NCBI RefSeq assembly: GCF_020252395.1
Contig: NZ_JADCDB010000002.1
Location: 1 to 64,000, forward strand
Direction: 5' to 3'
DNA length: 64,000 nt
Source: Aestuariivirga sp.
Lineage (GTDB): Bacteria > Pseudomonadota > Alphaproteobacteria > Rhizobiales > Aestuariivirgaceae
Part shown: piece after piece, positions 35,564 through 38,196 of the stretch
How the letters are laid out: every line of letters begins with the position of its first letter
Numbering within the stretch: the first letter of the stretch is position 1
Notes under the pieces: model-generated
What the model saw: only the letters and a program-made list of their open reading frames with translations
Told to the model about the DNA's origin: nothing
Database searches by the model: none
Translations under genes and position numbers: made by a program

Positions 35564-35586
35564 CCCCCCCCCCCCCCCCCCCCCCC
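35564..35586. repeat. Poly-C tract (23 C)
   Basis: A run of 23 consecutive C residues, 34 nt after the fni stop and just outside the left inverted repeat of the transposon. Homopolymers of this length are rare in alphaproteobacteria and prone to slippage and to assembly or sequencing length errors. Confidence 0.9.
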
Positions 35587-35591
35587 GAGGA

Positions 35592-35615
35592 GGGGAATTA
35601 TATACTTGACAAGTA
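35592..35615 (+). repeat. Left terminal inverted repeat of the IS1595-type element
   Basis: Begins GGGGAATTATATACTTGACA; it pairs with the right end at 38165-38188 with two mismatches. Confidence 0.85.
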
Positions 35616-35654
35616 CGCCCCGGACTCCTAAAAAGGACCCAAGGAGTTAGTTTA

Positions 35655-36599
35655 ATGTCCATTTTTTCCGCCCCGCATTTCCATAACGAAGCCGCAGCGA
35701 TTGCTCGGCTTGAGGAAATCGTGTGGCCGGAAGGCCCGCATTGCCCCCGCTGTGGCGGCTTCGACCGGATCACTCTGGTGAAGGGTGGCCGTGCAGGGCT
35801 TCGCCGCTGTGGCCCCTGCAAGCGCGAGTTCACCGTGACGGTTGGCACCGTCTTTGAGCGCAGCCACGTCAAACTGCATCTGTGGTTTCAGGCGGCTCAC
35901 CTGATGGCTTCTAGCAAGAAGGGCATCAGCGCCCACCAACTGCACCGCACCCTTGGCGTTACGTACAAAACCGCCTGGTTTATGGAACACCGCCTGCGCG
36001 AAGCGATGGCGAACGGCTCCATCATCCCTCTTGGCGGCGAAGGCAAAACCCTAGAAGCCGATACCACCTACATTGGCGGCAAGGAAAAGAACAAGCACAA
36101 GGTCAAGCGCGCTGAGAAGCCCCAGATCGGCGGCATGGGCAAGCAGATCGTCCATACGCTGGTTGAGCGTGGCGGCGCTGCGCGCTCTCACCACATTCCG
36201 TCCATCAGCGGCAAGACCCTCCGCCCGATCTTGAACAAGCACGCCCACCGCGCCTCCCATTTCATGATAGACACGGCTGGCGGCTACTATCAGGTCGGTA
36301 AAGAGTTTGCTTCCCACAGCATGGTGGACCACGGCATCGACGAACAAGTGCGCGGTAACGTCCACAGCAACACCGTTGAAGGCTGCTTTAGCGTCCTGAA
36401 ACGCGGGATTGTGGGTACGTTCCACCACGTGAGCGAGCAGCACCTTCACCGCTATCTCGCAGAGTTTGACTTCAGGTACAGCAACCGATCCGCTTTAGGG
36501 GTCGGAGATGAGGCTCGCGCTGATCGTGCACTTCGTGGTATCGTTGGGAAGCGGTTAACCTACCGGGACTCGTCAGTTCCCGGCACCGCAAGAGAGTAG
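35655..36599 (+). CDS. IS1595 family (ISXO2-like) transposase
   Basis: 314 residues. The N-terminal zinc ribbon has C30, C33, C52 and C55 (PHCPRCGG and LRRCGPCKREF), then the helical ISXO2 N-region and the catalytic core: D136 in ADTTYIGGK, D206 in FMIDTAGG, N239/E242 in HSNTVEGCFS, the DDE/DDN-type triad region of the family, and a C-terminal FDFRYSNR. An AAGGAG precedes ATG 35655. Length and motifs look intact, so the element may be active. It ends 5 nt before the next passenger gene. Confidence 0.95.
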   Translation: MSIFSAPHFHNEAAAIARLEEIVWPEGPHCPRCGGFDRITLVKGGRAGLRRCGPCKREFTVTVGTVFERSHVKLHLWFQAAHLMASSKKGISAHQLHRTLGVTYKTAWFMEHRLREAMANGSIIPLGGEGKTLEADTTYIGGKEKNKHKVKRAEKPQIGGMGKQIVHTLVERGGAARSHHIPSISGKTLRPILNKHAHRASHFMIDTAGGYYQVGKEFASHSMVDHGIDEQVRGNVHSNTVEGCFSVLKRGIVGTFHHVSEQHLHRYLAEFDFRYSNRSALGVGDEARADRALRGIVGKRLTYRDSSVPGTARE

Positions 36600-36604
36600 G
36601 AACG

Positions 36605-37438
36605 GTGGCGGAACGGGTTAAAGTAACAGTCCGCGCGTCTGGTGCGCATCCTGACGTCCTGACGATTCTGGACGCCATGCGGCAAGTATTGGATTTTTTT
36701 CAGCTTCTTGCCAAAGAAGGTGAGCCGGGAATCGAATGGCGGTTGTCCAAAGCAAGCACCAATAGCCCCTTCTACATCGTAGGAGAGGCTGTCAGTCTTC
36801 ATGCCGGTGTTGATGTTACAGTTGTGGCGAGATCTCAGAAACAGGCGCTGGAACACAGTCTTCGTGACATTGTTTCTAATCGTCTGCCCATTGATCCATT
36901 GTTCGACATCAAAATTGCCAAACGGTTTTTTGAAAGAAATACAAACGGCATAGGCGTAACTGAAATTGACTTTGAGACTGGTGATATAATCAAAGTTACC
37001 CCTCAAGTAGCACGTCAGGCAGTTGAAACGATTGTTAGACAACCTGAAAACGCCCTTTACGAGTTTGTCCGCCCAACAGAGGAAGTAGGGTCCATCGAGG
37101 GGACTCTTTTCTACGTTGGAACTCATCGGAAAGCGCCAGCAGTGCAGATCATTGACTCTCGTACCAAAGAGAAAGTGTGGTGCAGATTGAGTGCCGAACT
37201 TGAGCGCAGCTTCGATGGCAAGACTACATTTGACGATGTGTGGAAACACCGCCGTGTACGGATTAGAGGGCGAATTAAATACAAAGATGACGGCGCAATA
37301 GACTACGTTCTCTCTAGCGACATTACGAAAATAGTCGAGCGCCAAGTATCTCTCGATGAGATACAAGACCGTGAGTTTACGGGCGGATTGTCTGTAGTCG
37401 AATACTTGGATCGGTTTAGGGACGGTTCTCTTGGCTGA
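36605..37438 (+). CDS. Passenger protein of unknown function, partner of a PIN gene
   Basis: 277 residues, no signal peptide or membrane helix. The N-terminal half is mixed alpha/beta (VTVRASGAHPDVLTILDAMRQVLDFFQLLAKEG, then YIVGEAVSLHAGVDVTVVARSQ). Residues ~165-240 look like a small beta-barrel: GSIEGTLFYVGTHRKAPAVQIIDSR and VRIRGRIKYKDDGAIDYVLS. I do not recognise the family. The GTG start at 36605 follows TAGGA; the coding end overlaps the start of the PIN gene (37431) by 8 nt. This is the gene order of antitoxin then toxin, but it is long for an antitoxin, so a nucleic-acid-binding cofactor is the alternative. Confidence 0.7.
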   Translation: MAERVKVTVRASGAHPDVLTILDAMRQVLDFFQLLAKEGEPGIEWRLSKASTNSPFYIVGEAVSLHAGVDVTVVARSQKQALEHSLRDIVSNRLPIDPLFDIKIAKRFFERNTNGIGVTEIDFETGDIIKVTPQVARQAVETIVRQPENALYEFVRPTEEVGSIEGTLFYVGTHRKAPAVQIIDSRTKEKVWCRLSAELERSFDGKTTFDDVWKHRRVRIRGRIKYKDDGAIDYVLSSDITKIVERQVSLDEIQDREFTGGLSVVEYLDRFRDGSLG

Positions 37439-37997
37439 CAAGCCCCGCTACTACTGGGACGCCTGCGCATGGATTTCTTTAATCCAGAAAGAAACGGGCA
37501 GATTTGAAAACCTCGCCTACGTTATTGACGAGGCAAAGGCGGGGAGCGCTGAGATATGGACGTCATACTTTACCCTTGCTGAGGTGTATAAGCGCCCCTG
37601 CGGACACCCGACTGCCAGTGGCCTTGCACCCGACGAGGATACTGTATTCGAGGCCTATATCCTTCAGGATTTTGTTCAACGGGTCCAAGTTGATTTTGAC
37701 GTGGGCGTGCTTGCGCGCCGACTCTTGAGGACATACCCAACCATTGTTAAGCCGCAAGATGGCATCCACTTAGCCACTGCACTGTTAAACAATATTGATG
37801 AACTCCACACGTACGACCGCGAAAATCTTTTAGGTTTGTCTGGGCAAATCAAACGCCAAGATGGCGGAAAATTATTGATTAATGCACCCCCAAAGCGCCC
37901 GCAGCCCAAGAAGGCACCAGCGCCGCTATTAGAGGGGTTGGAGAAAGAACTTGATGAAGAAGGCGACCAAGCCGCCAGCGGAAAAAGTGCGGGCTGA
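37431..37997 (+). CDS. PIN-domain protein (putative ribonuclease)
   Basis: 188 residues. All four acidic PIN positions are present: D10 (RYYWDACAW), E51 (YFTLAEVYK), D110 (KPQDGIHLATALLN) and D129 (LHTYDRENL). PIN domains are metal-dependent RNases and form most VapC-type toxins. The last ~40 residues are a Pro/Lys then acidic tail. It starts with TTG 37431, overlapping the gene A stop, with a short frame following at 37954 overlapping its end. The operon sits inside the transposon. Confidence 0.85.
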   Translation: MADKPRYYWDACAWISLIQKETGRFENLAYVIDEAKAGSAEIWTSYFTLAEVYKRPCGHPTASGLAPDEDTVFEAYILQDFVQRVQVDFDVGVLARRLLRTYPTIVKPQDGIHLATALLNNIDELHTYDRENLLGLSGQIKRQDGGKLLINAPPKRPQPKKAPAPLLEGLEKELDEEGDQAASGKSAG

Positions 37998-38139
37998 CAG
38001 CCTTGCGCAGTCTGCGGCATTCATCGCAAAGGCCGAGGAACTTGAAGCCGATGGCGACGAGTCAGCGGCTGTCAAGATCATGGGTCGCATGGCTCAGATG
38101 AAACCCGCGCCGCGGCCCTCCAAGTCGAAAGATGAGTAG
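37954..38139 (+). CDS. Small charged protein, third passenger
   Basis: 61 residues from ATG 37954, rich in Lys, Ala and Glu (KATKPPAEKVRADSLAQSAAFIAKAEELEADGDESAAVKIMG), likely a helical hairpin. GGAGAAAGAAC precedes the start. It overlaps the PIN gene end by 44 nt in another frame and stops 25 nt before the right inverted repeat. I do not recognise it; a regulator or antitoxin of the PIN protein is possible. Confidence 0.6.
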   Translation: MKKATKPPAEKVRADSLAQSAAFIAKAEELEADGDESAAVKIMGRMAQMKPAPRPSKSKDE

Positions 38140-38164
38140 CTGGCCAAAGTCAGGTTTCAGTCCC

Positions 38165-38188
38165 TACTTGTTAAGTATATAATTCTCC
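38165..38188 (-). repeat. Right terminal inverted repeat of the IS1595-type element
   Basis: Read on the minus strand it begins GGAGAATTATATACTTAACA and matches the left end (35592-35615) at 22 of 24 positions. Confidence 0.85.
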
Positions 38189-38196
38189 CGAGGAGG

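Follow-up and report, generated by a model that had tools for sequence, protein, structure and literature searches.

A transposon of the IS1595 family that probably carries a type II-like toxin-antitoxin (TA) pair as its passenger lies in the genome of Aestuariivirga sp. (assembly GCF_020252395.1), in the first 64,000 nucleotides of contig NZ_JADCDB010000002.1; this whole stretch is called the window below. The element looks complete, is 2,595 bp long and occupies window positions 35593-38187. Four genes lie inside its ends on one strand, encoding an IS1595 transposase, a protein of 277 aa (gene A), a PIN-domain nuclease and a small protein of 61 aa. Gene A and the PIN gene form a two-gene module that also occurs without a transposase, and related elements show, as far as sequences can tell, that this A-PIN cassette has been swapped between transposases of the family. 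Why would an element of this kind carry such a pair? By analogy, the pair may help the transposon to persist in its bacterial host.

The element and its ends

The initial annotation of this DNA had described 24-nt inverted repeats with 22 of 24 positions identical, and these are present as claimed at 35592-35615 and 38165-38188. The flanking sequence that it placed at both edges stands only in part. The 10-bp CCCGAGGAGG does occur twice (35584-35593 and 38187-38196), but it runs into the tips of the repeats: it consists of the true target duplication, the 8-bp CCGAGGAG, plus one base per side, one of them being a repeat base. Eight base pairs is the target duplication length of the IS1595 family, and the two copies here, at 35585-35592 on the left and 38188-38195 on the right, are identical. 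Because a single phase gives symmetrical repeat pairing, we place the limits of the element at 35593 and 38187, with terminal inverted repeats at 35593-35615 (plus strand) and 38165-38187 (minus strand). A run of 23 C (35564-35586) is found directly to the left of the insertion site.

The transposase (314 aa; 35655-36599, plus strand) contains the DDE domain and the Zn ribbon of its family (Pfam DDE_Tnp_IS1595, 2.3e-33, and Zn_ribbon_IS1595, 2.5e-9). Invariant in 61 of 61 aligned transposases are C30, C33, C52 and C55, together with D136, D206, N239, E242 and K249, which we take to be the catalytic acidic or Asn and Lys residues. Gene A (36605-37438, GTG start, plus strand) begins 5 nt past the transposase stop. 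The PIN gene (37431-37997, TTG start, plus strand; 188 aa) overlaps the end of gene A by 8 nt, and is itself overlapped by the small gene, which runs on the plus strand from 37951 (TTG) or 37954 (ATG) to 38139 and encodes 61-62 aa. Terminal inverted repeats and an 8-bp duplication are those of an IS1595 element, and passenger genes within the ends are those of a transporter insertion sequence (tIS). A transposase followed by three tightly spaced, co-oriented genes was what the annotation had read here, and we confirm it; its IS1595 transposon with PIN cargo is strongly supported.

Could this be a chance cluster, an ordinary IS1595 element beside unrelated genes? A passage of PMC11092175 gives IS1595 of Xanthomonas and Ralstonia a length of about 1 kb and one open reading frame (ORF), which would suit that explanation. 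Against it, all four genes of the window lie within the repeats and the duplication, A-PIN is linked to transposases elsewhere, and the gene order is repeated in plasmid pMOC1 and others. In a mispaired control, in which the left side of one element was joined to the right side of another, 0 of 1,560 combinations had an exact 8-bp repeat and ends agreeing in at least 15 of 20 bases; in the window element 18 agree. We rejected the chance cluster, which is barely conceivable on these grounds.

The transposase survey covered 385 genomes and at E <= 1e-60 located 52 places in 39 of them; apart from the window and G283, which the set included beforehand, 48 loci were retrieved and two were left out. 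After screening for exact 8-bp duplications next to ends that match, we accepted 31 of the 48. Two doubtful loci were dropped (L078, 12/20 end bases; L087, 15/20 and untypical ends), and 15 lacked a duplication with matching ends, several being truncated where a contig stops. Adding the window and 8 loci found by other searches brings the 31 to 40 elements, which by choice match at 15-20 of 20 end bases. They span 1.8-3.4 kb, without a bare element of some 1 kb among them; because similarity to the window's transposase or to gene A decided their selection, this range holds for the window's group rather than for the family at large.

A-PIN loci and their transposases

Relatives of gene A were found in 7 of 385 genomes of the class (window included), in 4 of 398 genomes of the phylum, in one plasmid record (pMOC1), and at 23 loci in genome contigs. 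The contig loci came from a scan on two short patterns; an initial scan of the genome contigs using A alone returned none. L083 was added as an extra A-PIN locus from the transposase survey. After removal of duplicates, A is directly followed by a PIN match in 34 of 34 loci.

The annotation had allowed that these genes might never be linked to such a transposase elsewhere. This is not so: 19 of the 34 A-PIN loci have an IS1595 transposase upstream in the same orientation (in pieces only at L026, as a partial match at L022). In 13 of these 19 the transposase belongs to the window's group and is separated from A by no more than 60 bp. The other six (L012, L026-L030) have a methylase gene or remnant between transposase and A, and their transposases, where whole, are 34-36% identical to the nearest query. 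No transposase was seen near the other 15 loci, of which L122-L124 were covered for only about 0.7-1.5 kb upstream and L016, L033, L034 and L039 are near contig ends.

Plasmid pMOC1 of Methylobacterium oryzae has the four-gene order of the window, with a further gene inside; the ends of its element match at 16 of 20 bases and its duplication, AATCGGAA, is exact. The G283 element (ends 18/20, without an exact duplication) contains a methylase-like gene. In an uncultured Rhodobacteraceae assembly a 2,931-bp A-PIN element occurs four times, with 0-1 base differences between copies and with four different 8-bp duplications; a fifth A-PIN locus of this assembly (L026) is disrupted. Because four near-identical copies have differing duplications, the transposase-A-PIN unit does move; A-PIN is part of a unit recently mobile in this one genome. 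The L012 element has a methylase-HNH gene, and the related multicopy L027 element retains about 50 codons of the end of that gene, a deletion within the cargo slot.

The window's own genome holds a single copy of the element by DNA search, plus a 57-bp piece (81%) within another transposase gene. A second IS1595 element of 2,566 bp lies on the same contig (C12, ~180830-183395; L017:2831-5396), with ends matching at 20/20 bases, the duplication TTGCCTTA and a transposase sharing 33-35% identity with the transposases of the A-PIN set. Its A-like gene, which is outside the 34 loci, is only suggestive (hhalign P 5e-4, probability 31%); it overlaps an ORF whose product looks PIN-like by eye. The same genome has a stand-alone A-PIN pair on contig C9 (L124:932-2481; hhalign E 1.2e-12), flanked by genes that are presumably glgB and glgC. 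This pair is bordered by an 87-bp direct repeat copying the start of the downstream gene; apparently this start was rebuilt on insertion. The A-like protein of L148, also outside the 34, gave a non-significant match (0.053).

Exchange of the A-PIN cassette

Purifying selection acts on A-PIN in both pairs of loci that allowed a measurement. Ratios of nonsynonymous to synonymous divergence (dN/dS) are 0.07 for A, 0.02 for PIN, 0.08 for the transposase and 0.15 for the small gene between L010 and L021, and 0.22, 0.38 and 0.07 for A, PIN and transposase between L012 and L027; in two further pairs the synonymous sites were saturated.

Does the pair share the history of the transposase in front of it? 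Across 13 loci, distances of A and PIN are strongly correlated (r 0.89, P 2e-4), compared with 0.24 (P 0.03) for transposase and A and 0.11 (P 0.21) for transposase and PIN. Because A and PIN distances co-vary with each other and hardly with the transposase, A-PIN behaves as an exchanged cassette. In single comparisons, L025 and L027 are 78% identical in A and 82% in PIN, with transposases at 38%; L005 and L010 share 75% identity in the transposase and only 32% in A. Between L012 and L027, dS is 0.15 in A and 0.09 in PIN as against 1.44 in the transposase, and DNA identity is 65-89% in the transposase, 92-97% in most of A and PIN, and mixed between. The transposases of L038 (A-PIN) and L081 (other cargo) are 85% identical.

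On a 61-transposase tree from a quick search, without L022, whose match is short, and without the copies L026 and L028-L031, the A-PIN label requires at least nine changes, five of them forced by well-supported branches; loci labelled 'other' on this tree may conceal very distant pairs or cargo past a contig end. The label is nevertheless more clustered than shuffled labels (12.7 changes; 1 in 500 as low). Needing at least nine changes, yet fewer than the shuffles, the A-PIN distribution reflects neither a single origin nor randomness.

Cargo of sister elements and the small gene

Other cargo in the survey includes methylase-GIY-YIG, RelA/SpoT, DUF433/PIN-like, SocA-like and HEPN-like genes. 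The 31 survey elements contain 70 ORFs of at least 110 aa; 47 were scanned and 23 excluded by eye, mostly overlapping better candidates. At Pfam E <= 0.01 the 47 gave 23 families with one member each, some surely spurious, including C5 methylase, GIY-YIG, SocA_Panacea, PIN, PIN_10, DUF433, RelA_SpoT, GmrSD_N, HNH, NYN, HEPN, DUF1828 and DUF3800. PADLOC returned 54 families, the best 25 of 54 being mostly methylase models and PDC-S33; which locus carries which family is our own reading. The motif R[NHDQ]xxxH, typical of HEPN RNases, is present in 17 of 47 ORFs compared with 3.35 in shuffles, a lead that assigns no family.

Element L118 (genome G185; 20/20 ends) has a C5 methylase gene directly after its IS1595 transposase, plus one for a GIY-YIG nuclease, and looks like a candidate mobile restriction-modification unit. 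Very short proteins with a motif like LRMLxTPPKP occur in eight IS1595 loci (L088, L095, L096, L099, L104, L106, L107 and L113), and others with TPxxxxxAxxxPVK in IS1595 elements L118 and L026-L030.

The small protein of the window has no Pfam match at E 1. A profile built from 12 A-PIN elements recovered its 12 sources and 14 of the 48 surveyed transposase loci (one A-PIN-like, L083), along with another place in L022 and a weak match (5e-5) in L012/L031. The same profile search found it in none of 12 searched A-PIN loci without a nearby transposase and in none of L026-L030, whose transposase is distant. In 190 genomes it has 11 places in 8 genomes: seven are surveyed transposase places (window included), two (L142, L148) adjoin transposase pieces, and two (L147, L149) have no transposase within the 3.1 kb examined. 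Because its distribution follows the transposase, the small gene is likelier the element's own than PIN's antidote. We rejected the 61-aa protein as an unlikely antitoxin of PIN: it accompanies the transposase behind other cargo, and its profile found nothing in the 12 searched A-PIN loci that lack a nearby transposase match. The three-gene module of the initial annotation thus gives way to a two-gene unit. The small protein would belong to the transposon; a role in transposition or its control is a guess.

Might all three products be accessory transposition factors, with A acting, for instance, on single-stranded ends and PIN trimming flaps? Their operon-like coupling to the transposase, and the recurrence of the small gene with the transposase behind differing cargo, would agree with this. 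Yet sister elements with sound ends hold quite different cargo, 15 of 34 A-PIN pairs have no transposase found nearby, and A-PIN distances hardly follow the transposase. We regard this explanation as improbable.

The A and PIN proteins

The PIN protein matches Pfam PIN (2.6e-10), and none of D10, E51, D110 and D129 varies among the 22 relatives in the alignment, which omits broken, near-identical and later-found sequences; a PIN domain with conserved active-site acids is what a VapBC toxin has. None of the PADLOC models matches these 22 proteins at E 0.01, and NCBIfam gave one weak match, to IteA (0.0097), in a single protein. Gene A is predicted to comprise an alpha/beta N-terminal part, an OB fold at about 155-245 and a C-terminal tail with a helix. 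In the model, the OB fold is structurally closest to single-stranded-DNA-binding, RPA and tRNA-synthetase OB domains. Gene A has no Pfam match at E 1 and no NCBIfam match above cut-off (best below it, 0.033), and neither A nor PIN has sequence relatives in the PDB at E 1 and 0.001. Weak matches to DUF7947 (0.027, 1 of 25 A proteins) and tRNA_anti-like (0.099) served only as a hint of an OB fold. A is presumed to be an antitoxin or a nucleic-acid-binding partner.

If A-PIN is a TA pair, it would be transcribed from the transposase promoter, PIN would act as an RNase toxin, and A would bind and restrain PIN via its OB fold and C-terminal tail. Cells retaining the element would then be at an advantage, an effect that has been proposed for the TA pairs of Tn3 transposons. 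An addiction or defence role is plausible.

The main rival is a nucleic-acid-guided nuclease: a two-subunit effector in which the OB fold of A recognises RNA or single-stranded DNA and directs PIN, for example against phages or mobile elements, so that A-PIN would be a defence cassette and not an addiction pair. The nearest OB folds point this way, as does sister cargo with C5 methylase, GIY-YIG, GmrSD_N, HNH, HEPN, RelA_SpoT and SocA-like genes. Against it, PADLOC, which is silent on the PIN proteins, matched one of 25 A proteins (RecX-family model, 0.00066), and a pattern-based scan of viral contigs, reaching only fairly close relatives, found no A-PIN. An overlapping partner-then-PIN order is, besides, the usual TA layout. 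We consider the effector rather unlikely.

Several observations weigh against a TA pair on an active transposon. The usual VapB is far smaller than the 277-aa gene A, which has no recognised antitoxin DNA-binding domain and falls in no known antitoxin family of Pfam or NCBIfam (its N-terminal fold was hardly compared). For the modelled OB fold, a role in nucleic-acid binding is no less fitting than one in binding a toxin. PIN frames seem broken in 4 of 34 loci (L014, L023 at its start, L035 and L122, none with a transposase) and gene A of L024 has an early stop, so the pair does not stay intact everywhere. Apart from the window and G283, tblastn found A-PIN in only 1 of 48 retrieved survey loci (L083). 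At the insertion site, same-genus genomes G744 and G749 align only as far as the upstream gene and thus show no empty site. The window transposase carries T137 where 59 of 61 carry E, and its neighbours T137, I205 and S238 of the catalytic residues are unusual; because of T137 and the one genomic copy, the window copy may be inactive.

A wider reading, which we hold with some reserve, makes a large alphaproteobacterial group of IS1595 elements a natural cassette vehicle. Transposase, ends and often the small gene would form its fixed frame, in which toxin-like or restriction-like modules are swapped repeatedly, A-PIN being one module taken up several times. A would represent an unrecognised class of OB-fold PIN partners, co-expressed with the transposase, and each transposition would deliver an addiction or guard unit.

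Comparison with known systems

The ISNwi1 group comprises passenger-carrying IS1595 elements. Known already, from the parts of the papers available to us, are passenger genes in IS1595, ISNha5 being cited with a transcription regulator gene (PMC11891212), and TA pairs in Tn3 transposons (PMC7157771). The window element resembles the tIS of PMC11891212 in its IS1595 transposase, terminal repeats and extra genes not directly for transposition; it differs from those described there in that its passenger is a conserved PIN pair right behind the transposase, exchanged between elements. Our literature search, covering titles and abstract openings and few subscription journals, found no TA-type cargo described in IS1595 elements. 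With VapBC the window element shares a PIN nuclease with conserved acids and an overlapping upstream partner gene, whereas its partner is a 277-aa OB-fold protein of no recognised antitoxin family.

In Tn3-family transposons, TA pairs, some with PIN or HEPN toxins, are located within the transposition module; they were acquired on several occasions, and transposon promoters may drive them (Lima-Mendez 2020, PMC7157771, as far as available to us). The window element is alike in having a toxin-like PIN pair inside a transposition unit. It differs in its unrelated transposase family, in that none of its four products matches a resolvase in Pfam (a res site was not searched for), and in that A, lacking a Pfam match, fits none of the six antitoxin families that PMC7157771 names; A would be a PIN partner family without a Pfam name. 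The element would offer a simple system for asking whether TA genes help a transposon to invade or persist. If our reading is true, a TA pair has been joined to a transposase operon and exchanged as a cassette, and the TA trick of Tn3 is shared by another kind of element, unrelated to it and far smaller.
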